Shown here piece by piece: positions 8,007-27,292 of a DNA stretch of 28,832 bases (positions within the stretch are counted from its first letter, which is position 1; each line of letters starts with the position of its first letter). The notes below the pieces were generated by a model. The model worked only from the letters and a program-made list of their open reading frames with translations, was not told the origin of the DNA and searched no databases. The stretch lies in the IMG/VR virus record IMGVR_UViG_3300037088_000020, positions 1-28,832 of that record; one strand, written 5' to 3'. The DNA is from a virus. The position numbers were made by a program, and so were the translations under genes.

Positions 8007-8237
8007 CTACCCTCCCAGGGCTTTCTCCAGCCGCTCCATCATGGCCGTATTCTGAGAGATCACATCCGTGCAGCGTTCCACCATCGGCAGCAACACGTTG
8101 CGCTGCTCGTCTTCCAGCTTATTGATGCGCTTGTCCATGCGCAGTTCGCGGAGCCAATTCTGCCAGAGGAAGAATCCCACCACCAGAACCAGCGGCCCGT
8201 ACTGTCGGAGCATGAGCCATAGGTCAGACAGTTCCAT
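8007..8237 (-). CDS. Small one-span membrane protein, BhlA/holin-like
   Basis: A 76-residue protein with one hydrophobic segment at residues 12-28 (YGPLVLVVGFFLWQNWL) followed by a charged helix, RMDKRINKLEDEQ, and a second helical stretch to the end. This architecture is that of BhlA/UviB-type holin-like proteins, which insert in the inner membrane and help release the endolysin. The ATG has GGAGG at 7 bases spacing. It is the first gene after the capsid terminator. The location between capsid and connector genes is not a classical lysis cassette, so a structural or membrane-anchoring role is also possible. Confidence 0.7.
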   Translation of the reverse strand: MELSDLWLMLRQYGPLVLVVGFFLWQNWLRELRMDKRINKLEDEQRNVLLPMVERCTDVISQNTAMMERLEKALGG

Positions 8238-10911: not shown

Positions 10912-11352
10912 CTATTTCTGCGTTGACAGGTATCCTTCGACACCCAACTGTGCGATCACAGACAACTGTGTTTCCAACCAGTGAAGATGATCCTCCTCTT
11001 CCTTCAAGTTGGCTTCCAGCAGCGGGCGGATCGCCTCACTCACTGTCCGCAAAGCCATCTTGTAATCGGCAATCGCTGACACTTCCGATTGCCGATCAAA
11101 CTGAAATTGCATCGGCACTTCCCGGCCGGTATTGATCGGATTGAGTCGGTTGACCACTGGCAGGCCACCCAGAGCTAGGATGCGGGACATCAAGGACGAG
11201 GCGTGCCGCATTTCCATCATGGCTCGCTTCTTGACCATTTGATGCAAGGACGCATAGCCCCAGTTTTCAGCCATCTCAGCGTGGACCACATACTGGTGGA
11301 TCGCGGTCAATTCACCAGCCAGCAACAAGTTCAACGTCTGAATATCGTTCAC
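10912..11352 (-). CDS. bfr: Bacterioferritin
   Basis: A 146-residue protein with the full bacterioferritin pattern: LLAGELTAIHQYVVHAEM near the start, NWGY at 30-33, MMEMRHASSL at 45-54, RILALGGLP at 57-65, KEEEDHLHWLETQL at 117-130 and QLGVEGYLSTQK at the end. Diiron ligands correspond to Glu14, Glu47, His50, probably Glu90, Glu119 and His122. Met48 matches the haem-ligating methionine at the subunit interface. Bacterioferritins form 24-subunit shells that oxidise and store iron. The GTG start has AAAGGAG at 6 bases spacing. It sits between a head-tail connector and the scaffold gene, in line with the late operon, which is an unexpected setting for a host-type iron protein. It appears intact. 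Confidence 0.93.
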   Translation of the reverse strand: MNDIQTLNLLLAGELTAIHQYVVHAEMAENWGYASLHQMVKKRAMMEMRHASSLMSRILALGGLPVVNRLNPINTGREVPMQFQFDRQSEVSAIADYKMALRTVSEAIRPLLEANLKEEEDHLHWLETQLSVIAQLGVEGYLSTQK

Positions 11353-13141: not shown

Positions 13142-13166
13142 AAGTCGCGTCTCTCAGGTGCGACTT
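13142..13166 (-). terminator. Hairpin after collagen-like spike gene
   Basis: AAGTCGC and its complement form a 7-bp stem around an 11-base loop, overlapping the spike gene stop, followed on the minus strand by TAACCCTTAACC. It lies in the 65-bp gap before the glycosyltransferase and may be a weak terminator or mRNA-end stabiliser. Confidence 0.4.
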
Positions 13167-15516
13167 AGTATTCAGTTGAGGACCAATTGGAAATGTAGGC
13201 GTTGGCATTTCCTACCGTGTTCAAGGCTGGATTGTAATTGTTAGTGTTGGATTGGACGCTCACCGACGTGACACGGCAAAAACCGCCCACGTAAGCACTC
13301 GCCCCATAGCCCACACCACTTCCAACCAGGAACCCGCCGGTGATGTCGATGAAGCCGCAGTTCCGTGCCAGGATGCCCGTGTAGGCACCGCCGATAGCCA
13401 CAAAGAATGCGTCGATATGCGAACCACCACCGGACGCATAAAGCCCGTGCCCGGCACCCATGCCGCCGCAACCGCTAATCCCTAGCCATTGATCGGTCGT
13501 CACGTAGCCGTGATACACCGTCACGCCGCCGTCAAAGTTGTTGATGCCGAGTGACTTCAACAAGATCGACGGATTGCTTCCGCCATTGACCCATGCAGTT
13601 GATGTCGGGACCATAACGGCGCTTGTCCCAGCATTCCGTACACCAACCAGCGCCATCCTCCCGAACGTCACGTCGGAGACAATGACAAAACCATTGCCCG
13701 CAAACGTCAGAACGCTCTTGAGCACGCGAATGTAGCCCGTTACTGAACCACTTGGCACGGTGCTGGCAAAACTGTAGACCAGCAACGTGATGCGATGATT
13801 CACACTGTCAACATTCGTAACTTGGTGACAGCCACACAGCATCAAGGGATTCGTGCCACCACTCGGTATCCGAATCACCACGTAGTCATTGACCGCGATA
13901 TTGCTCACGTCGCTGACATTCAGGATGACCGTATAGCCGCCGCCCACAGCCGTCGTACTAAACACTGACGACATTGTGATGTCGTAGGTGTTGACACCGA
14001 GAATCTGAACTCGTGCGCCGCACGGATGCCAGTAGTCGATCTCAGCCACCGACGAATAATGTCCATCCTGGACATAGAGCGTAGCGGTGTAGGCTGGCGG
14101 AATATACATGGGACCGATGACCGACAAGAACTTGCCGACCGTCTTCCACGGATTACCGCTGCTGCCATCACCTGTTGAATCGTTCCCCGAAGGACCGATG
14201 TAGTAAGTAATGTTGCTGTTGATCGCCGAGCCCGCGGGGCCGGTCGCACCAGTCGCACCAGCAGGACCAACAGGTCCCGTCGATCCAGTAGGACCGGCAG
14301 GGCCACCAGATGGACCACTTGGCCCCGATGGTCCTGTTGCACCCGTTGCACCCACAAGGAAAGCAGTCAAGCCGCCCCAATGCGTGCTCTGTGGGCCTGT
14401 TGACCCCGAGGGACCCGTCGAACCAGTTGGCCCGGATGGACCAGTAGCGCCCACAGGTCCCGAGGGACCACTTGGGCCAGTCGCACCAGTCGGGCCGCCC
14501 GGGGGACCACTAGCCCCTGCTACGCCCGCCGGACCCGTTGGACCCGTTGCTCCAGTCGGACCACCCGCGGGTCCCGTTACACCAATTGAACCCGTTGCAC
14601 CAATTGCACCCGCGGGTCCTGTTGCACCAGTCGCACCAACCAGGAAAGCAGTCAAGCCACCCCAGCGTGTGCTCCGCGGGCCAGTTGCCCCCGCCGTTCC
14701 GGCCGGTCCACTTGGACCAGACGGCCCCGTCGCCCCAGTTGGGCCGCCGGATGGTCCACTCGGTCCCGTTGCGCCAGTGGCACCTTTGAGACCTGTAAGT
14801 CCAGTCGGACCAGTCGGCCCCGTCACACCAACCGGCCCAGTAGTGCCAGTTGCACCTTTGAGGCCAGTCAAACCAGTCGGACCCGTCGCGCCTGTTGCAC
14901 CGTTGAGACCAACCGGCCCAGTTGTGCCAGTTGCACCCTTGGGACCACTTGACCCAGACGGTCCGGTTATTCCCACACCAGTCGGCCCAGTAGTGCCCGT
15001 TGCACCCTTGAGACCAGTTGGTCCGGTCGGGCCAGACGGTCCGGTTGCGCCTGTTGCACCCTTGGGACCCGTCGCACCAATCAAACCCGTTAAACCTGTC
15101 GGACCCGTCGCACCAGTCACACCCGCACCAGTCGGTCCAGTAGTGCCCGTTGCACCCTTGGGACCAGTTGATCCAGTCGGACCAGTCGCGCCAGTTGCAC
15201 CAGCACCCGTTGGGCCAATCGAACCTGTTGCACCCGCAGGACCAGTTGCCCCCGCCGTTCCGGCCGGTCCACTTGGACCAGACGGCCCCGTCGCCCCAGT
15301 TGGGCCGCCGGATGGTCCGGTCGGTCCAGTCGGACCAGTTGTACCCGGTGCCCCGGGGTTATCAAACGAGAGATTTCCAGCCCCGTCCGTTTTCAGGACT
15401 TGACCGGTCGTACCGTCGCTGACAGGGAATTTAAGTGGCGGAATCACCAGTTGATCGCCGGAAGCGAACTGGCGAACCTGTCCACTTTCGACGACCAATG
15501 GTTTGTGTTCTGCCAC
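13165..15516 (-). CDS. Collagen-like tail spike with beta-helix C-terminus
   Basis: A 783-residue fibre. Residues 1-52 form a module ([33 protein letters not shown]) related to the start of the 15538-16107 protein. Residues about 53-435 are collagen-like Gly-X-Y triplets, mostly GPT, GAT and GPS, with two interruptions carrying WGGLTAFLV. The C-terminal 350 residues begin [20 protein letters not shown] and continue as Gly/Val/Asn-rich strands, the pattern of a right-handed beta-helix spike, ending NWSSTEY. Collagen stalk plus beta-helix head suggests a receptor-binding or glycan-binding fibre. GTG start with GGGAG at 7 bases. The gene carries an exact 77-bp in-frame direct repeat. No catalytic residues can be assigned by eye. 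Confidence 0.88.
14353..14388 (-). repeat. Duplicated non-collagen interruption, copy 2
   Basis: Encodes [12 protein letters not shown], an interruption in the Gly-X-Y pattern of the spike. It is almost identical to the copy at 14638-14673 ([12 protein letters not shown]), each followed by GATGATGP. The two copies are 285 bases (95 codons) apart. Confidence 0.9.
14638..14673 (-). repeat. Duplicated non-collagen interruption, copy 1
   Basis: Encodes [12 protein letters not shown], the first hydrophobic interruption of the collagen stalk in transcription order. Differences from the second copy at DNA level are mostly third positions, suggesting an older duplication held by selection on the peptide. 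Confidence 0.9.
14681..14757 (-). repeat. 77-bp exact direct repeat, distal copy
   Basis: Identical over 77 bases to 15242-15318 and in the same reading frame (offset 561 bases, 187 codons). It encodes part of a [15 protein letters not shown] segment. Recombination between the copies would remove 187 codons of stalk without a frameshift. Confidence 0.93.
15242..15318 (-). repeat. 77-bp exact direct repeat, proximal copy
   Basis: Partner of the repeat at 14681-14757, near the start of the collagen stalk of the spike gene. Exact identity contrasts with the drifted codons of the surrounding triplets, so the duplication or a gene conversion between copies is recent. Confidence 0.93.
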
Positions 15517-15537
15517 GATAAAACTCCCGTCTGCTGC

Positions 15538-16107
15538 TTACAACTTGATCGGAGCCGCAAGCACCAAGTCCATCTTCGTCGCGGAGATCGCCTTGCCGAC
15601 CCGCACGACAAACTGCCCGGCCGTTGTCGGGGCCGAAGCCGTCAGCAGGCCAGCCGTGGCGGGGTCCAGGAAGTAGACCGCACCCGGAGTCAGACCACCC
15701 GAGCCACCCGTGACAGCATCCCAGTCGGTCGTCAAAGCCGTCAGGGTGCCATCCGTCAGGATGTTGCCCGGATCGCCTGCGGCAATAGACGTGTCCTTCA
15801 CCAACCCGAAGACATCCGTTGTCGCCTGGGCATTCGCCTCAGCGAGATCGACCGTGCCGTCCGCCTTGAGATAGACCGGCGCACCGATCAGGATGGGGTT
15901 GGCGTTGGCGTTCGTCAGCGACTCTTGCGCGACATCGGGATCAACCCATTCCAGCACTGTCCCGCTGGCCGGCAGCGCCAGCACTTGCTTCGCGGCACCC
16001 GCACCCGGCGGCAACTGATAGCCGCCGACATCGAGACCATCGACAGACTGAATCTGTTCCAGTTCTCCGGCCTCGATCACGATTGGTTTGCGATACGTTA
16101 CGGACAT
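15538..16107 (-). CDS. Fibre-associated protein without collagen repeats
   Basis: A 189-residue protein lying between two collagen-like genes. Its N-terminal 50 residues (RKPIVIEAGELEQIQ, AKQVLALPASGTVLEW) resemble the start of the spike protein encoded downstream. Its C-terminal 120 residues (IGAPVYLKADGTVDL, TDVFGLVKD, GLTPGAVYFLDPATAG, FVVRVGKAISATKMDLV) align with the C-terminal domain of the 16120-16833 collagen protein. It thus links the two module types and may be a fibre connector or a virion surface protein. The ATG has AAGGAG at 8 bases spacing. No membrane span. Molecular role unknown. Confidence 0.82.
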   Translation of the reverse strand: MSVTYRKPIVIEAGELEQIQSVDGLDVGGYQLPPGAGAAKQVLALPASGTVLEWVDPDVAQESLTNANANPILIGAPVYLKADGTVDLAEANAQATTDVFGLVKDTSIAAGDPGNILTDGTLTALTTDWDAVTGGSGGLTPGAVYFLDPATAGLLTASAPTTAGQFVVRVGKAISATKMDLVLAAPIKL

Positions 16108-16119
16108 TGTTGTTGCTCC

Positions 16120-16833
16120 TTAAAGCCTGACCCTTGTTTTGACACACACGTCAAAGATTGTTGGCGTCACAGCGACCCCCACTTGAATCACGTACCCTTG
16201 TGCTGGCGGTGTCGGAGTCATTTGCCCGGCGGTATCGTAGCTCAAATAGTACACCACACCAGGACGTAGACCAGCGACACCCGTAGCAGCCGACCAGTCA
16301 AACAATTCCAGTCGCCCGGCTGGAACAATCGTAATGGGGTCTCCTGCGCGTGCCCCAAACGAAAGCCCGCATACCTGACTATTTGGTGCATTATCCGCAC
16401 CAGCATTATACGCGCCTAACGTATCAGGTATCACAAATACTGGTGCGCCCGGTGCGACATCCTCGCCAGCAATTGTTTCGATGTTGACCGAAGGACCACT
16501 TGGCCCCACTGGTCCTGTCGCTCCTGTCGCTCCTGTTGGCCCGCCCGGTGGACCGATGGGGCCACTTGGTCCACTGGGACCCGTTGCTCCCGTGGGTCCC
16601 AATCGGCCTAACGGACCGCGTGGCCCAATCGGTCCTGTTGCTCCTGTTGCTCCGTCAATTCCTTGTAGACCTTGTGGCCCCGTCACTCCCGCCGGGCCAG
16701 TCGCCCCAATAGGACCCGTCGCCCCAATTGGCCCGGTCGCCCCAACAGGACCCGTAGGTCCTATTGGACCGCCCGAGGGTCCCGAAGGACCACTCGGACC
16801 AACCAACCCTGGTTGTTCATAGTCAAACTGCAT
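16120..16833 (-). CDS. Short collagen-like fibre with C-terminal globular domain
   Basis: A 237-residue protein. After MQFDYEQP there are about 110 residues of Gly-X-Y triplets ([21 protein letters not shown] and similar; [10 protein letters not shown] as an animal-collagen-like stretch). The C-terminal 115 residues form a non-repetitive domain with [45 protein letters not shown] and a terminal VKTRVRL. This domain matches the end of the next gene's product. Collagen stalk plus small head suggests a trimeric head or tail fibre. No clear ribosome site is seen upstream of the ATG; translation may be coupled to the preceding gene, whose stop is 18 bases away. Confidence 0.85.
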
Positions 16834-16850
16834 GACTTAGCCCAATCAGG

Positions 16851-18257
16851 TTAGGGGTTAAATCGGAACCAACTCAAGTTGCCGCCTCCGTCTGATTGCA
16901 AGCACCAGAACGAATTATTGCCAATCGGTGCAGTCGGCAATCCCGCACCTACGGGGCCTGTTGGACCAGTCATGCCAACAGGGCCGGTCGCACCGGCTGG
17001 TCCAATCGCTCCAGCCGGACCAGTCGGGCCAGTCGGGCCAGTTGCCCCACCAGGACCAGTCGCCCCCGCCGGACCCGTTGCACCGGCATGGCCAATCGAA
17101 CCAGTCGGACCAGTTGCCCCGCCGGGGCCAGTTGCCCCACCGGGGCCAGTCGCACCCGCCGGACCTGTTGCGCCGGCCGGACCAATCGGACCAGTCGCCC
17201 CATCAGGGCCAGTCGGACCAGGCGAAGGTGCGCCAGTTGCGCCAACTGGACCAGTTGGTCCAATTGCCCCACCAGGGCCAACGGCTCCTTGTGCTCCGGT
17301 AAAACCTCTCGGACCCGCAGGTCCGGTTGCGCCGCTCGGGCCAACATCACCTGAATCACCTTGCGGTCCGGTTGCGCCAATGTCACCTTGCGGTCCCGTC
17401 GCTCCGTCCGGCCCGGTTGCGCCAATGTCACCTTGCGGTCCCGTTGCTCCGTCAGGTCCCGTCGCTCCATCAGGCCCCGTTGCTCCGTCAGGCCCCGTCG
17501 CCCCCGTTACACCGACGCCCGTTGGACCAACAGGACCAGTAGCGCCAACAGGACCCGTCGCGCCGACAGGCCCCGCGGGACCTGTTGCTCCAGTACGACC
17601 CAAGGAACCTTGCGGCCCGGTCGCCCCGATAGGACCCGTCGCACCAATCGGCCCAGTCGCCCCGTCAGGCCCAGTCGCCCCCGTAGGACCACCATCAGGC
17701 CCGGTAGCGCCAATAGGTCCAGTGGCTCCAGTTGCACCAACACCCGTTGGTCCAGCAGGGCCAGTCGCCCCGGCAGGACCCGCAGGCCCGGTTGCCCCGA
17801 CAGGCCCGGTTGCCCCATCCGGCCCCGTGTCACCGATTGGCCCATTCGGACCAGTCGGCCCCGTGACACCATCTGGCCCAGTCTCACCGATTGGTCCGGT
17901 TGCGCCGTCAGGACCAGTCGCCCCGGCAGGACCCGCAGGACCAGTCGCCCCGGCAGGACCAGTCGCCCCGGCAGGACCAGTTACTCCGGCAGGACCAGTC
18001 GCCCCGGCAGGACCAGTCGCCCCGGCAGGACCAGTCGCCCCGGCAGGACCAGTCACTCCGGCAGGACCCACGGGACCAGTTGCCCCAGACAAACCCACGG
18101 GACCAGTCGGCCCGGTCGGGCCGTGGTTGCCTTGTACGCCTTGTACGCCTTGGGGTCCCGTTGCGCCAACAGGACCAGTTGGTCCAGCGCCAGGCCCCGT
18201 TGCACCAACCGGACCTGTTGGTCCGATGGCTTCATTCGGTGGAACGTAGCTGAACAT
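16851..18257 (-). CDS. Long collagen-like fibre protein
   Basis: A 468-residue protein of which about residues 10-440 are Gly-X-Y triplets, dominated by [12 protein letters not shown] and GPD, with rare breaks such as GAGPTGP. A short C-terminal cap, [19 protein letters not shown], resembles the [14 protein letters not shown] element at the start of the spike gene. Proteins of this kind form trimeric rod-like appendages on phage heads or tails. The ATG lies 4 bases after the stop of the small virion gene. Threonine is frequent in the third triplet position, which in bacterial collagen-like proteins (for example BclA) is a site of O-glycosylation; the downstream glycosyltransferase makes this relevant. 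No signal peptide. Confidence 0.9.
17920..18068 (-). repeat. 18-bp tandem repeat in collagen gene
   Basis: About eight near-identical 18-base units of the form CCCGGCAGGACCAGTCGC occur in tandem, encoding repeated GATGPA / GVTGPA hexapeptides. Only single-base changes (for example GTCACT or GTTACT for GTCGCC) separate units. The near identity, unlike the rest of the gene, indicates recent slippage and makes this a likely length-variable site, always in frame. Confidence 0.88.
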
Positions 18258-20493: not shown

Positions 20494-22242
20494 CTACAAA
20501 ACCTTGCGGATATTCGTGCTGCCACTGATGGTCGCAGCGAACGTCAACGCAATGTCGGCGTAAACCAGTGAATGAGCAAAGTGGTCAGGCCCAGTCTCAA
20601 CGTAGACTGCTTCCGGGTTCCCGTGTTCGTCCTTCTCGTAGGTTCGCACGAGGTTCTTGATATGCTCGCGGTACTCCACTGAGATGTCCGCCGGCAACAA
20701 AATCCGAGTCGGGTTCGTCTTGAACCGGCCGAGTGTGCAACCCAACCAGTTCGTCCGGTCCACCGTTGCCATCGGGGCTCCGGTATCCTCTTCCGTGACT
20801 GTAATTTCCTTCGCTTGTTGGCCCCGTCGATACCGAGACAGCCAGACGAAGCCGTGAAACTTTCGAGCAAAGCGGCGGGCGTCGTTAATGTTCGGGTCAG
20901 CGTCAATGACGCAGGCCAGGACTTGCCACTCACGCATCAATTGCCCGAGGTAGGTGAAATCTTCCTCGCGGAACTTGCCGTACCACAGCAGCTTGCCAAT
21001 TGCCGCCTGATTGATGTCCACACGGATGTCGCCGTCCAGCGTCCAGTCCACCACGGAAATGTAACCAGTCTTACCCTGGTCAACACCCATCGTGATGCAC
21101 CGCCGTCCGCCGACCACCGGCCGCAGGTCAGTGATCGAATACTTCCGCACTGCATTGTCCAGCATCGTATCCGTGACCTGGGCGTTCGCACCGATAAACG
21201 GCAACCCAATCTTCGAGTTGTGAAACTCCTTGTTCGCTACTTCGTCTCCCTGCCCGCGAAAGTAAGCAATGGCGATCTCGCCGGGTGAGACGGTAGACGA
21301 ATAAAGTTGGTTGGCATAAAAGCCACGGGACTCCTGCGGGTCCACGTTATGATTCGTTGGCTGCCAGAGTCCATTTGCCAGAAACTCGAACTTGGCAGCA
21401 TGTTCCAACTTGTGTGCGCATTCCTTGCACTTGATGAAGGACTCCGAAGTCCGCGGATCGCTACTCGTCTCCCCGCGAATCTCGAAGCAATCCGGCCACA
21501 CCAACTCCGTCCATCGACCACAGCAAGGGCACTTGAAGAAGTAGTGCTCTTGTGTGCTTGACAGGTACAGCTTATGGATGCCATACTTCGGCACAGTCGG
21601 TGTCGATATGGCGACGACATGCTTCTCGATCTGACCAGATAGACGTTCCAAGGCCAACCAAATGGCCTTGGTGTCCATTTCATCCAACTCGTCCAACACC
21701 AGTTCGGAGACCGGAATAGACTTCAAGTTGGAGTCGCCACGACTTCCACGAATGTACAGGACGTTGGTGCCAGTTGACTTCAAGCCAACGGTGTTGGTGT
21801 CCACGAACAGCGACTTGAGATAGGGACTGAGTTTCAGCGCGGTGGTGAAGCGAGCCTTGGAAAAGTCACTCGCATTCAAGGTCGTCGGCAGAACGTACAA
21901 CACGTCCCGCTTCGCCTGATCCATCGTGTAGAAGGCTCGATTGATCCCAACTTCCGTGATCCCCAACTGGGCCGCCTTCATCGCCACTGTGAAGGCGGCT
22001 TTGCTATTGTGAATCTCACGGCACCACGGATGGTGCAAGAAGCTGTAAGGACCCGGAAACGGTGCGCCCATCACACGTCGATGTTCAGCCCACCGGCTAC
22101 ACGATAACAGAGACGAGTTTTCCAACCCAGTCGTTATGCCCTGCGTAAAGGCATCCCACAACTCGGCATGGCTGTCGCGTGTCTGAGTCATCGTGTAGCC
22201 ACCGTTATAAGCGAGGTTGCATGGTTCAGGTTCGCTCGGCAT
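20494..22242 (-). CDS. terL: Terminase large subunit, lambda GpA type
   Basis: A 582-residue packaging ATPase-nuclease. The adenine/Walker A region is AFTVAMKAAQLGITEVG (residues 83-99), the Walker B is LVLDELDEMD (181-190), and the coupling motif is AISTPT (211-216). A zinc-finger-like insertion, KCPCCG and KCKEC at about 237-275, is typical of GpA-type terminases. The nuclease domain begins TMGVDQG (Asp388), with CVIDADPN (Asp447, Asp449) and GPDHFAHSLVYADI near the end (Asp553, Asp563). All key acidic residues are present. The start at 22242 has no clear ribosome site; an in-frame ATG at 22191 (MTQTRDSH) is an alternative. The portal gene follows by 11 bases. Confidence 0.93.
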   Translation of the reverse strand: MPSEPEPCNLAYNGGYTMTQTRDSHAELWDAFTQGITTGLENSSLLSCSRWAEHRRVMGAPFPGPYSFLHHPWCREIHNSKAAFTVAMKAAQLGITEVGINRAFYTMDQAKRDVLYVLPTTLNASDFSKARFTTALKLSPYLKSLFVDTNTVGLKSTGTNVLYIRGSRGDSNLKSIPVSELVLDELDEMDTKAIWLALERLSGQIEKHVVAISTPTVPKYGIHKLYLSSTQEHYFFKCPCCGRWTELVWPDCFEIRGETSSDPRTSESFIKCKECAHKLEHAAKFEFLANGLWQPTNHNVDPQESRGFYANQLYSSTVSPGEIAIAYFRGQGDEVANKEFHNSKIGLPFIGANAQVTDTMLDNAVRKYSITDLRPVVGGRRCITMGVDQGKTGYISVVDWTLDGDIRVDINQAAIGKLLWYGKFREEDFTYLGQLMREWQVLACVIDADPNINDARRFARKFHGFVWLSRYRRGQQAKEITVTEEDTGAPMATVDRTNWLGCTLGRFKTNPTRILLPADISVEYREHIKNLVRTYEKDEHGNPEAVYVETGPDHFAHSLVYADIALTFAATISGSTNIRKVL

Positions 22243-22632: not shown

Positions 22633-22893
22633 TCAGACGACAGCCGACGCATTGTTGTTTTCCACAGCTTTCGCCACTTCCAACAAGTTTGATGCCATCC
22701 GGCGAAGCGGTGTAGGATCGCCGCCGGGAGCATTGAGTTGTGCATACACTCGCATCATTTCAACCGTCGCGTTGCAGGTGACAAGCGTATGATGCCAGAG
22801 ACGCTTGCCATCTTCGAGCACGAGCCCGGACACGGGCGGTAGTTTTCGAGGTGTCGGTGTCTGCGGACAATTTGCACACCGTCGCTCGGCCAT
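22633..22893 (-). CDS. Small CxxC-containing protein, unknown
   Basis: An 86-residue protein. The N-terminal MAERRCANCPQTP contains one CxxC pair, with a further Cys at about residue 40 and His residues nearby, so a metal or redox role is possible. The rest is predicted helical (VEMMRVYAQLNA, RRMASNLLEVAKAVENN). The ATG overlaps the TGA of the thioredoxin lipoprotein gene (TGATG), with GAGGTG upstream, so translation is coupled. A GTG one codon earlier is possible. No signal peptide. Function unknown. Confidence 0.7.
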   Translation of the reverse strand: MAERRCANCPQTPTPRKLPPVSGLVLEDGKRLWHHTLVTCNATVEMMRVYAQLNAPGGDPTPLRRMASNLLEVAKAVENNNASAVV

Positions 22894-23300
22894 CACAGCA
22901 CCTCGTCGATTAGCTTGACGGCTTCGTCAATGTCCTGTGTCCGCACGGTTTCATGTCCACTGCGGAACACAAAGTAGACAGGGATACTCGTGATGCCAAG
23001 CCCTTCCATCTTCTCTGGGGAGGTGTCAATGTTGACGCGCTCGACAATGACGCCTCGCCTCTGCAAGGCCGTCAGCTTCTCTTGGCCTGCACGGCACGCG
23101 GAACACCACTCGGCTCCAAATGCAATGACTTGCGGCGGCGCTGGCTTCACTTCCGGTGGTGCCGGTCGATCTGGCCATACCTGATGCCTTGGCATCGGGG
23201 CCACTGGCGACGATGGCTGCTCACAGCCCGAAATCAGAAGCGTGCCAATGATAGCCGCCAGCGGGATCAACACCGATTTGCAAAAGGATGCCGTTCTCAT
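22893..23300 (-). CDS. Thioredoxin-fold lipoprotein
   Basis: A 135-residue protein with a lipoprotein signal peptide: hydrophobic residues 8-24 and lipobox LISGC (Cys26). A Pro-rich linker (27-56) leads to a thioredoxin domain with VIAFGAEWCSACRAGQEKL, active site WCSAC at 65-69, NIDTSPEKMEGLGI and the cis-proline loop SIPVYFVF at 105-112. It should be lipid-anchored facing the periplasm (or the cell exterior) and catalyse dithiol-disulfide exchange. The ATG overlaps the previous stop (ATGA), with AGGGG upstream; an in-frame GTG lies three codons earlier. Membrane-tethered thioredoxins are not a usual phage late gene; it may aid folding of disulfide-containing envelope or lysis proteins encoded nearby. 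Confidence 0.88.
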   Translation of the reverse strand: MRTASFCKSVLIPLAAIIGTLLISGCEQPSSPVAPMPRHQVWPDRPAPPEVKPAPPQVIAFGAEWCSACRAGQEKLTALQRRGVIVERVNIDTSPEKMEGLGITSIPVYFVFRSGHETVRTQDIDEAVKLIDEVL

Positions 23301-23995
23301 ACCGACCACCCCTTCCCACTGTTGAACGCAGCAATCACACGAAGCACGGTCCTCACTGCTGACTCCACAGTCCCCATGCCTTCCGCTCGGCTGGCGTATT
23401 CCACGTCACTTGCTGTCTTGTGTGCCCGCGGATACTTCCAGCCGAAAGCCAACATCAGAAACCGTTCGACGCACTCATGGATCAAGATGAACGGCAACTC
23501 GGTCGGGTGCATCGTGTATTCCAACCACACTTCGTTGGGTGGAATCCAATCGTAGCGACCGTGATTGCCGCCCTCAATGAACGGCACGTAGTAACGATCC
23601 CGAACGGCTTCACCGTTGACCAGCCAGACCGTGATCGGACCGAACGTGACATACTTGCGGACGTAAATCTGGCCGCCAAGGTTCGGGTCCCGCGTGACGC
23701 GCATCCGCTTCTCGGCGGAATCACCTGCATTGTAAGCGGCATCCTTCTTGGAACCATTCTCCAGCCACTTGAGTTGCGTGAAGGCGTTCGTCAGGATGTA
23801 CGGATACTCTGTCTCCTGAAGGTCGTCCTCGATCCAGATTTCATTCTCGGGGATCAGTCCGGGAAAATCAATCGAAAGCGCCCACTCACCAAATTCTTCA
23901 TCGCCTTCTGGCCGAGAGTTACGAATTGCCTCACCGTCCACAACATAGACGGTGTAATCGCCATATCGACGGTACAACCGTTTTTGTATGTTCAC
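23297..23995 (-). CDS. Duplicated-domain protein with one intact HExxE site
   Basis: A 232-residue protein made of two copies of one domain, residues 14-97 and 120-203. Copy pairs are clear: YTVYVVDGEAIRNS with ITVWLVNGEAVRDR, and IPENEIWIEDDL with IPPNEVWLEYTM. The second copy has LIHECVE (His173, Glu174, Glu177) followed by a helix with AHKTASDVE (His192, Glu199), a likely metal site seen in small phage proteins of unknown function. In the first copy the matching residues are Asn70, Ala71, Gln74 and Tyr88, so only the second can be active. I chose the GTG at 23995 because GGAG precedes it at 8-9 bases. No signal peptide. Could be a metal-dependent hydrolase; no reaction can be assigned. Confidence 0.8.
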   Translation of the reverse strand: MNIQKRLYRRYGDYTVYVVDGEAIRNSRPEGDEEFGEWALSIDFPGLIPENEIWIEDDLQETEYPYILTNAFTQLKWLENGSKKDAAYNAGDSAEKRMRVTRDPNLGGQIYVRKYVTFGPITVWLVNGEAVRDRYYVPFIEGGNHGRYDWIPPNEVWLEYTMHPTELPFILIHECVERFLMLAFGWKYPRAHKTASDVEYASRAEGMGTVESAVRTVLRVIAAFNSGKGWSV

Positions 23996-24015
23996 GGTGA
24001 TGTCTCCTTCAATTC

Positions 24016-24078
24016 TCAAAGGCTCGCATTCGAGAGCCCTTGAGGACTGGCCCCGGCCGGTTGCAAGCCGACCGGGGC
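24016..24078 (-). terminator. Two consecutive hairpins in intergenic gap
   Basis: The gap 23996-24127 holds two imperfect inverted repeats. At 24050-24078 GCCCCGG(T/C)CGG arms flank TTGCAA; at 24016-24045 CTCAA(G)GGCTC arms flank a short loop. In transcription order the GC-rich hairpin comes first, after the coiled-coil gene's stop. There is no T run, so a terminator is uncertain; mRNA processing or attenuation ahead of the HE-motif gene is possible. Confidence 0.4.
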
Positions 24079-24127
24079 AGATTCCAAACACCTGTCAAAG
24101 TGCGCATGACTCAGAGGCGTGACAGGT

Positions 24128-24526
24128 TCACTTGGCGGGGACTGCCGGAGGCGGTGCCGCCGGCGCAAGGGCCGCAATCTTCGCTTGGACCAACGCCAGA
24201 CCCTCGGGCGTGGCCAGCTTCGCGTCCAGCACCTTCTCGTAGGTGGCTTCCAACTCCTTCTCGATGGCGTCGTTGCCGGACTCCACCAGCTTGGCCAGAT
24301 CGTGAATCTTTTCCAACAGGTCGGCCACGTTGCCCACGACGAAATCTTCCAGCAAGGAAGGCAACAGCTTGAGGCCCACGGACCGCAGCTTGATGGCGAG
24401 CGCCTGCGCGGCCCGCTTCTTCGCCACCAGCTTCTCGTTCGTGCCGAAAAGCCACTTGCCGGCCTCACGGCCGAGCAACACGCACACCAACGCCACCAAC
24501 ACCAACAGTAGAACGGACGGATTCAT
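24128..24526 (-). CDS. One-span membrane protein with coiled coil
   Basis: A 132-residue protein with an N-terminal membrane segment (residues 4-18, VLLLVLVALVCVLLG), then a basic region with KLVAKKRAAQALAIKL and a long helical, heptad-like stretch to about residue 115, ending in an Ala/Pro tail. The ATG at 24526 has GGAG upstream; the open frame starts 19 codons earlier without ribosome site. Topology is probably N-in or N-out single span with the helix free. In a phage late region it could be a holin- or spanin-like factor, but the sequence does not prove it. It is placed among other envelope proteins. Confidence 0.78.
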   Translation of the reverse strand: MNPSVLLLVLVALVCVLLGREAGKWLFGTNEKLVAKKRAAQALAIKLRSVGLKLLPSLLEDFVVGNVADLLEKIHDLAKLVESGNDAIEKELEATYEKVLDAKLATPEGLALVQAKIAALAPAAPPPAVPAK

Positions 24527-24588
24527 GCTTTGTCTCCAGAATGGGAATGCTGCATCAGGCAGCGGGTAGGTCACAGGAAGCACACCGG

Positions 24589-25284
24589 CTACTTCACCGG
24601 CGGCAACAGCTTGTCTTTCAGCTTCCGGCCATAGCCGAGCATCAGGCCCACCAGAACTGCAACAGTGCAGACCGGGACCACAACATACCAGGGCAAGAGC
24701 GCATCCACGGGGTCCACTACCGGAGTCGCATTGTCATCGACCGGCTGTGGCTCGGGATCGACATTCGGCCCTGGCTGCGGATTAGGCACTGGCTTCGGCC
24801 CTGGCGCGGGACATCGCTTTTCCATTTCCCGTCGATACGGCAAGAGCCGCCAGCGGGCAGTCGCCTCACCCACCGCGGATGCCAAAGCGCCATTGAGACC
24901 TTCGGCCGTCAAAGGGATTTCCTTCGCCGAGGCTTCGTAGGCCACGTTACCCGCGGCATTCTGCATACGAACGGTCGGCAGTGCCTTAACATTGGGCGCG
25001 TAGCGTTCCGTATAGATAGCCGTGTCGGTCGTCACCGGGCAGAAATGCACTTGACTCTTCAACTTGGCAAGACTCGTATTGCTGTCAAACCAGCCAAGGA
25101 TTTCCTTGTAGCCGGCATCATTCGCGTTGCCGACCACACTGATGTACCACTTGCCCTGATCGCCGGGCAAGTTCACGATACGCTCTTCGGCCAGGACGCC
25201 ATTCGTCGGCGTTGCGGCAAAGCACGGGGCCACCGCCGCCAAGAGCAGGAAGACACACAGGACACTGAGTAGCAGCTTGTTCAT
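24589..25284 (-). CDS. Secreted, membrane-anchored thioredoxin-like protein lacking CxxC
   Basis: A 231-residue protein with a signal peptide (1-23, ending CFAA), a globular domain at about 45-140, a Pro-rich linker at 158-190 (PGPKPVPNPQPGP), a transmembrane span at 199-218 and a short basic tail (GRKLKDK). The globular part resembles a thioredoxin fold: KWYISVVGN as first strand and VKALPTVRMQNAAGNVAYE as the cis-proline loop plus final strands. Where CxxC should lie (NANDAGYKE) there is no cysteine, so a redox role is unlikely; a binding role is more probable. The start has a GAGAG site, and the next gene upstream ends 28 bases away. Fold assignment is an inference by eye. Confidence 0.75.
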   Translation of the reverse strand: MNKLLLSVLCVFLLLAAVAPCFAATPTNGVLAEERIVNLPGDQGKWYISVVGNANDAGYKEILGWFDSNTSLAKLKSQVHFCPVTTDTAIYTERYAPNVKALPTVRMQNAAGNVAYEASAKEIPLTAEGLNGALASAVGEATARWRLLPYRREMEKRCPAPGPKPVPNPQPGPNVDPEPQPVDDNATPVVDPVDALLPWYVVVPVCTVAVLVGLMLGYGRKLKDKLLPPVK

Positions 25285-25312
25285 TGTTCTCTCGCTTGTG
25301 AAACTTGTGACC

Positions 25313-25864
25313 TTATTGCGGAAGCGGAGCCGCCGGAGTGTAGATTGGCGTAACCGCCCATCCCAGGCTTGCCTTCCACTCGGCAATCAGCGTCTCTCGC
25401 GGAACCCAGATGTAATGCTCGACGGCGTTGTCATCCAAGAGGGCAGCCCACTTATCGTCGAGATACACCAAGGCGACCATGTGTGCGCCGCCCAGCACTG
25501 TGATGCCACAACCCCGTCGCGTTCGACAGGCCCACTCCAAGAACTTCACGTTCCCGGTGTCAGTGTAGGCGTAACGAATCTTGGCTGCATCTAACTTGGC
25601 AGCCATGTCCTCGGGGTTCTCGCCACCGCCGTAATTCTGTCGCACCCAATCCGCCGTTTTATAGCGACCCTGCCAACGCAGCAGAGACACCATTGAGGCC
25701 CAGGTGCAAGAGCCATCACCTGACAACCAATTGCTTTGCCGCATAGAAAGCGGCAGATTCACGGTGGGGCGTTCCTTCCTCACCGGTTTGATCTTAATGC
25801 CGTCTCCGGTGCAACCGCTGAACACGAGGCACGCAAGTAAGACGACCAAAATGTTTCGTTTCAT
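25313..25864 (-). CDS. C39-like papain-fold cysteine peptidase lipoprotein
   Basis: A 183-residue protein with a lipoprotein signal (hydrophobic 5-17, lipobox VFSGC with Cys18). The mature part has papain-fold features of the C39-like group: RQSNWLSGDGSCTWASM (candidate nucleophile Cys53), GGAHMVALVYLDD (His128) and LLDDNAVEHYIWVP (Asp145 or Asn146). It should act at the outer face of a membrane, cleaving a peptide or peptidoglycan link. The ATG overlaps the TGA of the upstream NlpC/P60-like gene (ATGA) with GGAGG upstream; the longer frame from 25999 would overlap that gene and lose the signal peptide. Lysis, superinfection exclusion or host envelope modification are all possible. Confidence 0.8.
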   Translation of the reverse strand: MKRNILVVLLACLVFSGCTGDGIKIKPVRKERPTVNLPLSMRQSNWLSGDGSCTWASMVSLLRWQGRYKTADWVRQNYGGGENPEDMAAKLDAAKIRYAYTDTGNVKFLEWACRTRRGCGITVLGGAHMVALVYLDDKWAALLDDNAVEHYIWVPRETLIAEWKASLGWAVTPIYTPAAPLPQ

Positions 25865-26505
25865 CGCATCCTCCGTGGCTTGAAGACAAGTTCTTTGCCG
25901 CGGAGTGTCCGACAAAGGTGATTCGGATTCCATCGGCCAGCGTTGTCGGTCGGCATGATGCCAATGGTCGCGTGGGCAGCAGCCACCCACTCTGAACAAA
26001 ACATCATGTGCAAGTCTTGTTCTCGTAAGCAGGACTCAACCCAGGACAACCCGATGCCAGCCGATCTGAATGCGCCCATTTCGTCGTAGGGTGTGTGGAT
26101 CGTCGCCATCAAGAAGTCGGTCAGCCGCTTGTCCTCGTGCTCGAAGAGCCGCCGATAAAGTGGGTAGTGCCAAACTTTGCCGGGGTAAACCTTGAGAATC
26201 TTGTCGAGATCGTGAGCCTGCGTGCCGTTGAAGCACGCACCCATAATCTCGCACGGCATACCCTCTAAGGTCGTACTCTCGAACAACAACAATCGGCCAT
26301 CCGACGCATGAGCCAGGATGCCGACATGACTTAGGCCCCACCACGGGAGCCCGTAAGTACCGATGTTAATAAGGCCGCTGATCCAACCATTGCCCGAGAA
26401 ACCGATCACGTCCCCGGCCTTAAACTCCTCCGGGTGAACAATCTGGCACACGTCGCGCTGACACAACACCGGCAGTTGATCACAAGGGAGAAGGTTCTGG
26501 GACAT
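25861..26505 (-). CDS. Permuted NlpC/P60 (YiiX-like) hydrolase
   Basis: A 214-residue protein with the circularly permuted papain fold of YiiX/YaeF-type enzymes. In order: FKAGDVIGFSGNG, then LSHVGILAH with catalytic His60, LLLFESTT with Glu76, and MFCSEWVAAA with nucleophile Cys170. These are the three expected residues and spacing. Family members cleave amide bonds in peptidoglycan peptides or lipid substrates. No signal peptide is visible, so export would need a holin or it acts in the cytoplasm or virion. The ATG at 26505 has GAGGT five bases upstream; an ATG 4 codons earlier lacks a site. It overlaps the small zinc-ribbon gene by 26 bases. A good candidate for the endolysin of this phage. 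Confidence 0.85.
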   Translation of the reverse strand: MSQNLLPCDQLPVLCQRDVCQIVHPEEFKAGDVIGFSGNGWISGLINIGTYGLPWWGLSHVGILAHASDGRLLLFESTTLEGMPCEIMGACFNGTQAHDLDKILKVYPGKVWHYPLYRRLFEHEDKRLTDFLMATIHTPYDEMGAFRSAGIGLSWVESCLREQDLHMMFCSEWVAAAHATIGIMPTDNAGRWNPNHLCRTLRGKELVFKPRRMR

Positions 26506-26656
26506 GCTCCACCTCATAGCCTGTATGTATCAGGGTCTTCACCGCGCGGCTATGACCGTGATAGCGCTTCTGATCGTTAGCCCAACAATCCTCGCAGCGC
26601 GTCTCACCCGCGTAAAGGATGATCTTGCCGCACGCACACCACCGAGGCATCTGCAT
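26480..26656 (-). CDS. 58-residue zinc-ribbon-like protein
   Basis: A short open frame starting with ATG immediately after the TAA of the small-terminase-like gene and ending 26 bases inside the NlpC/P60-like gene. It encodes MQMPRWCACGKIILYAGETR, then CEDCWANDQKRYHGHSR and a C-terminal TGYEVEHVPEPSPL. The CxC...CxxC arrangement (Cys7, Cys9, Cys21, Cys24) with nearby His residues looks like a small zinc ribbon. The exact junction with the upstream stop, coding-like composition and conserved-looking cysteines support a real gene translated by coupling. No strong ribosome site is present. Function unknown; nucleic acid binding or transcription control is possible. Confidence 0.65.
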   Translation of the reverse strand: MQMPRWCACGKIILYAGETRCEDCWANDQKRYHGHSRAVKTLIHTGYEVEHVPEPSPL

Positions 26657-27229
26657 TTAGGACTCGTTTGATGGGGACATGAGGGCCGGAGGCCGAGGCT
26701 CATTTTGTGCCTGTTGGATGACTTCGATGATGTCGGCAATCAGTGGGTCCACGATCTGCTCGTAGTTGGGCAACCCTTCCAGCCGGCGGGTGATTGCCCC
26801 GCAGATTGCTTGGCCGACACGAATCAAAGTTGGCTTCGACAACAGGTTGCCTAACTTCTCCTCGATCTGATTGCAGGACTTGACCAGTTTTTCGAGGGTG
26901 AGCATGTGACTGTTTACACGCCCATAGACGGCCAACTGCTCGACATCTGACTGGCCGGACAGAATCAGTAGGTTCTCGATCATCATACGTGTCAAGAAAA
27001 TCTCTTCCCGAAGTGACTTGATCCCGTCACTCTCGGCGAAGGCGGCCAGCTTCGCCCGGTCCTGGGCGCGAGCCAAAAGATAGCCTCGCACCCCCTTCTC
27101 CGGGGGTCGATATGAGCCGGCATGGACACGGCAGTAGTCTGACCCGTCCAAGGCCACAGTCATGCACTGTCCGGTGCCGACCGATGCCTTACACCTCCGG
27201 GGGTCCGCCAAATCCGTCACCCGGTCCAT
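26657..27229 (-). CDS. Putative small terminase-like protein with zinc knuckle
   Basis: A 190-residue protein and the first gene of the late operon. The N-terminus has RRCKASVGTGQCMTVALDG followed by DYCRVHAG, with Cys13, Cys22, Cys33 and His36 forming a zinc-knuckle-like group. The rest is helical: LREEIFLTRMMIENLLILSG, LTLEKLVKSCNQIEEKLG and QICGAITRRLEGL, a pattern I recall from phage proteins proposed to be small terminases or their relatives. I chose the ATG at 27229 because GAGGT lies upstream; the frame opens at a GTG 11 codons earlier without a site. It is separated from terL by about ten genes, which is atypical, so the terminase role is tentative. Confidence 0.6.
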   Translation of the reverse strand: MDRVTDLADPRRCKASVGTGQCMTVALDGSDYCRVHAGSYRPPEKGVRGYLLARAQDRAKLAAFAESDGIKSLREEIFLTRMMIENLLILSGQSDVEQLAVYGRVNSHMLTLEKLVKSCNQIEEKLGNLLSKPTLIRVGQAICGAITRRLEGLPNYEQIVDPLIADIIEVIQQAQNEPRPPALMSPSNES

Positions 27230-27292
27230 AGATACCTCGCTGACACGGCACAGTGATTCCACACCATTACCAATCGCCAGAACGGACGTTTT

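Follow-up and report, generated by a model that had tools for sequence, protein, structure and literature searches.

A conserved block of envelope-directed cysteine peptidase and thioredoxin-fold genes beside terL in phages of Planctomycetota, with a possible role in lysis

A 28.8-kb virus fragment from IMG/VR, the whole stretch that we analyzed and refer to below as the window, carries next to its large terminase gene a set of genes for cysteine peptidases and thioredoxin-fold proteins. The set proves to be a genuine module that is conserved among relatives, and the hosts of the phages that carry it are Planctomycetota. We give an even chance to the explanation that the block is expressed late and serves these phages to take apart the host envelope (lysis), combining proteolysis with thiol-disulfide exchange and, in hosts that call for it, with cleavage of peptidoglycan.

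All genes of the block lie on the minus strand. From the putative small terminase gene (terS, 26657-27262) toward terL (20494-22242), they encode a 58-aa protein with four cysteines conserved in the alignment of relatives (26480-26656); an NlpC/P60-like permuted cysteine hydrolase (25861-26505); a C39-fold peptidase lipoprotein (25313-25864); a thioredoxin-fold protein, Trx1 (24589-25284); a protein that we call coil, with a single span at its N terminus and a helical domain after it (24128-24526); a protein with an HECVE motif (23297-23995); a thioredoxin lipoprotein with a WCSAC motif, Trx2 (22893-23300); an 87-aa protein containing CxxC (22633-22896), which by the synteny of relatives usually adjoins Trx2 in this terL lineage; and a 79-aa protein. 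An initial annotation of this DNA had named five of these (NlpC, C39, Trx1, coil and Trx2); each is on the minus strand where it had been placed, and profile, fold and conserved residues bear out the identities. The HECVE gene, a sixth one inside the block, was missing from that list. It is an insertion present in the window and six close relatives only, possibly coding for a metalloprotein, and we rejected it as a core member. The starts had been described as coupled, and this is so at the NlpC/C39, HECVE/Trx2 and Trx2/87-aa junctions, where start and stop overlap by a few bases, but not at the remaining junctions within the block, which have gaps of 28-130 nt. Of the two terminase genes said to enclose the block, terL is certain (GpA type; PF05876, E 7.6e-31; phrog_675, E 3.6e-98), whereas terS was assigned by its position, which is syntenically conserved, and had no confident family match in Pfam or PHROG. 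Similarly, the description of the products as envelope targeted holds for C39, Trx1, coil and Trx2, each of which has a signal peptide, lipobox or membrane span, but not for the NlpC-like protein, which has no signal peptide.

Other features of the window and its relatives deserve mention. In the late operon of the window, a gene located between those for scaffold-like and head proteins (10912-11352, minus strand) encodes what we recognized by eye as a bacterioferritin-like protein, and the window also encodes several long proteins with collagen-like Gly-X-Y repeats (13165-18257, minus strand) that are probably fibers. In several relatives (L092:10217-12299, L016/L089, and L103), an insertion interrupts the portal gene after roughly 35-42 codons, pointing to an intron or an inserted element. 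A likely phage-borne CRISPR locus is found on the related contig IMGVR_UViG_3300041955_001975 (L020:927-4453), where a Cas9/IscB-like protein of ~989 aa, with both an RRXRR and an HNH domain, is encoded next to five direct repeats; these are 37 nt long and for the most part spaced 66 nt apart.

Relatives of the window were collected with a terL profile, and gene order was counted in the 40 loci for which 4.6 kb or more of sequence upstream of terL was available. All five genes were present in the same order in 36 of these 40 loci, some of which are on near-duplicate contigs. The block is thus conserved as a unit in related phages, and its genes do recur together elsewhere, at a frequency far beyond chance. 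The other four loci (L039, L122, L129 and L130) form one sister clade, in which other genes occupy this position; they encode a small protein with two spans, an anchored protein, a papain-like peptidase with a TAT signal and with its Cys, His and Asn present, and an exported thioredoxin with CxxC. An exported thioredoxin and an exported cysteine peptidase therefore occur together in 40/40 loci despite the change of peptidase type. One shorter locus, L008, is an exception that has no Trx2. Beyond the terL lineage the link is looser, and C39-Trx1, often with coil, is found in prophages with other terminases, mostly without Trx2. A tblastn search of 50,697 phage records gave no match for NlpC, C39 or the papain-like protein, and a search of cultured phage records with the holin-like proteins described below was without result; a comparable gene set was not found in the phage databases searched.

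The hosts are Planctomycetota: related terL genes lie on two Planctomycetota MAG contigs (L038 and L039), and of 348 genomes from a single planctomycete class, 52 contain C39; some of the host genomes are MAGs or consist of many contigs. When 40 flanks of C39 were inspected, about three quarters of them had a Trx1 homolog next to it. At one locus (L242), the C39-Trx1 pair sits in the head-gene operon of a different prophage, between capsid-decoration and head-tail genes.

The C39-like lipoprotein had no Pfam match at E values up to 1 and no PDB profile match. Its AlphaFold model (mean pLDDT 81.9) gave 6mpz as the best Foldseek match (E 2.4e-4), followed by ComA and PCAT1, all of them C39 double-glycine peptidases with the papain-like C39 fold. 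All 80 full-length homologs have the catalytic Cys and His and 79 have the Asp (L214 has Asn), an Asn is also among the conserved catalytic-site residues, and 40 further homologs from host genomes all have the Cys, His and Asp. The NlpC-like protein likewise had no Pfam or PDB profile match, its sole profile match being phrog_1128 (E 4.7e-10), the annotation of which is uninformative. In the alignment of relatives its motifs follow the permuted order SHVG...FES...FCSE, and the His, Glu and Cys are invariant (H59, E75 and C169, in a numbering one lower than from the ATG); this residue order, together with the SHVG and FCSE motifs, we take to be the signature of the permuted NlpC/P60 (YiiX/YebB-like) family.

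The two thioredoxin-fold proteins differ in their active sites. Trx2 is by Pfam a true thioredoxin (PF00085, E 2.8e-7, above the cut-off), and as judged from its homologs the lipobox is conserved and WCxxC is retained in nearly all. Trx1 has a signal peptide, a thioredoxin fold, a proline-rich stalk and a C-terminal span; in its AlphaFold model pLDDT exceeded 90 across much of the domain, and Foldseek matched it to PDB thioredoxins with E values of about 5e-4 and TMt of 0.63-0.70. CxxC was found at the active-site position in none of 40 aligned relatives, so Trx1 cannot be the peptidase reductase in the usual way, and we ruled it out as an active reductase.

For coil, the charge pattern predicts an N-out/C-in orientation, and we rejected it as an i-spanin. 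Small one-span coiled-coil proteins with an XhlA/BhlA-like layout recur at the block in L233, L234 and L236, although their holin scores were weak (PHROG holin E 0.08-0.81; XhlA E 0.027). The one in L236, which lies inside the C39-Trx1 pair, is 50% identical to a one-span coiled-coil protein with a holin-like layout that the window encodes outside the block, after the capsid gene (8007-8237, minus strand). The latter is a possible partner of the block.

We also looked for a redox link between Trx2 and C39. Two additional cysteines of C39, C114 and C120 (in a numbering one higher than from the ATG), are nearly invariant. The prediction that homologs without them would also be without Trx2 agreed in the first three cases (L136-L138). 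Across 78 C39 sequences, those with both cysteines had Trx2 in 52 cases and were without it in 2, compared to 9 with and 15 without Trx2 among the others (Fisher P = 3e-8, a naive test); a later case, L233, has both cysteines and no Trx2 and breaks the pattern. On the C39 tree, the association comes down to only 4-5 independent changes, and a paired ancestry-corrected test was not significant. We therefore treat the apparent association of Trx2 with the extra cysteines as a lead only. Since C39-Trx1 is often found without Trx2, C39 is generally not in need of it.

The walls of the hosts bear on what such enzymes might do. Planctomycete walls have been described as Cys/Pro-rich protein stabilized by disulfides (PMC3035269, PMC2754498), most Planctomycetales are without peptidoglycan genes and possess YTV wall proteins rich in Cys in their place (PMC8567305), and in P. 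limnophila some peptidoglycan genes are dispensable (PMC10632474). A protease combined with a disulfide reductase would therefore be a sensible means of opening cells of this kind. Among 42 genomes carrying this gene family or the papain replacement, a penicillin-binding transpeptidase scored over the Pfam cut-off in five (G009, G644, G646, G588 and G399), four of which also had mraY over the cut-off. The NlpC gene was present in 3 of the 5 transpeptidase-positive hosts vs. 1 of the 37 negative hosts (Fisher P = 0.003, naive and uncorrected for kinship). The exceptions are its presence in the transpeptidase-negative G694 and its absence from the related positives G399 and G588. C39-Trx1 is present in transpeptidase-positive and -negative hosts alike. 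This distribution fits NlpC being a peptidoglycan enzyme added where it is useful and the target of C39 being something that every host has.

No canonical lysis cassette, the finding of which outside the window would have spoken against the initial annotation, was recognized in the related contigs, which may be incomplete. Pfam scans of 91 of the 106 proteins of an 84.6-kb contig (G002) and of 46 unknowns of a 113.8-kb contig (G001) revealed no endolysin, holin or spanin family; neither Amidase_2 nor Phage_lysozyme was present in 18 related records (43-178 kb), and PG_binding_1 was absent from 8 related records. Members of the block had no confident match to known holins, endolysins or spanins. 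A phrog_2252 "endolysin" match in G002 was rejected, as the protein is a relative of dGTP-pyrophosphohydrolase. Both of these contigs encode, outside the block, a second exported protease that is trypsin-like (L027:14017-14952 and L022:7972-8835, both on the minus strand). The G399 prophage, which by eye looks complete and spans some 38 kb from the integrase to the replication genes, carries next to terL the genes for C39, Trx1 and coil together with one for a small coiled-coil membrane protein, and we noticed no further envelope-directed or lytic gene in it, again judging by eye. Our literature search on planctomycete phage lysis found nothing.

How these products might work together can be outlined as follows. 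The core would be the envelope-tethered C39 cysteine peptidase and the membrane-anchored, redox-inactive Trx1, which probably holds or controls C39, with coil as a frequent third member. The peptidase would cleave host wall or envelope proteins. Trx2 would carry out thiol-disulfide exchange in the same compartment, acting on the cysteines of the peptidase, on a disulfide-rich host wall, or on both. In hosts having peptidoglycan, the NlpC/P60-like enzyme would cut it, for which it would have to leave the cytoplasm. Within this outline we infer lysis itself, the substrates, the contacts between partners, the direction of redox flow and the exit of NlpC from the cytoplasm. The initial annotation had imagined a tethered thioredoxin activating cysteine peptidases or keeping them reduced, in an undescribed lysis system or in one that alters the envelope or blocks other phages. 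This is supported in part, by the conservation of the unit, by the lack of a recognized lysis cassette in related contigs and by the pairing of an exported thioredoxin with an exported cysteine peptidase even where the type of peptidase changes, but Trx1 would not be a reductase of the usual kind, given its lack of CxxC. A bolder and distinctly tentative proposal, which we hold to be doubtful as it stands, is that the block represents a new class of phage lysis, in which a thiol reductase and a cysteine protease would dissolve a disulfide-crosslinked protein wall and a peptidoglycan enzyme would be included only where the host makes peptidoglycan.

Other functions could also account for an envelope-directed gene set of this kind. 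Exported peptidases and a thioredoxin might alter or destroy surface proteins, thereby blocking other phages or protecting the infected cell, and would then be dispensable for lysis. Exclusion factors are typically lipoproteins or anchored proteins, and C39-Trx1 occurs in numerous prophages and is passed between phages that are not related, as this explanation would have it. Yet exclusion genes are usually accessory, whereas the block is near-universal in the terL lineage and is replaced rather than lost; it is also co-directional with the late genes and gave no PADLOC match. We regard envelope alteration or superinfection exclusion as unlikely, and lysis appears to us the better reading of the two.

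A double-glycine peptidase being the closest fold, C39 might instead mature an exported phage or host peptide, as its counterparts in ABC exporters do; Trx1 would then act as a scaffold and Trx2 would assist folding. The strict pairing with a Trx-fold scaffold would suit such a role, but the block has no transporter, no substrate peptide was noticed, and the sister clade has a papain-like enzyme in its place, and we consider peptide processing improbable. Loading of the proteins into particles, or action on the envelope during DNA entry, might be read from the position of the L242 pair among head genes; signal peptides, lipoboxes and membrane anchors would be odd for virion proteins, however, and no structural families were matched in Pfam or PHROG, making a virion or entry role very improbable.

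For the question of how phages leave Planctomycetota, many of which are without peptidoglycan genes, the block provides a concrete, testable gene set. If the lysis explanation is true, phage lysis would extend beyond peptidoglycan hydrolysis, the enzymes would be ones that open planctomycete cells, and the block could serve as a genomic marker for planctomycete phages among unassigned viral contigs.

Compared to known systems, the block resembles canonical holin-endolysin-spanin cassettes in being presumably late, envelope directed and beside terminase genes, but it consists of peptidases and a thioredoxin, with no recognizable holin, endolysin or spanin. The Lyz endolysin of phage P1 is reportedly controlled by disulfide caging and isomerization (Xu 2005 and Kuty 2010, as cited in PMC9025707). 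The likeness to Lyz would be that of a lytic enzyme whose periplasmic cysteine state matters; Lyz, however, is a muramidase, carries a SAR domain and has no dedicated phage thioredoxin. With C39 double-glycine peptidases (the ComA/PCAT1 peptidase domain and 6mpz), the phage lipoprotein shares the fold and the catalytic Cys-His-Asp, but it is a stand-alone envelope protein without a fused ABC transporter and without a Pfam C39 match. Finally, the phage NlpC-like protein has the His, Glu, Cys order and the SHVG and FCSE motifs of the permuted NlpC/P60 (YiiX/YebB-like) hydrolases, from which it differs in matching no Pfam or PDB profile and in being a member of a five-gene phage cassette.
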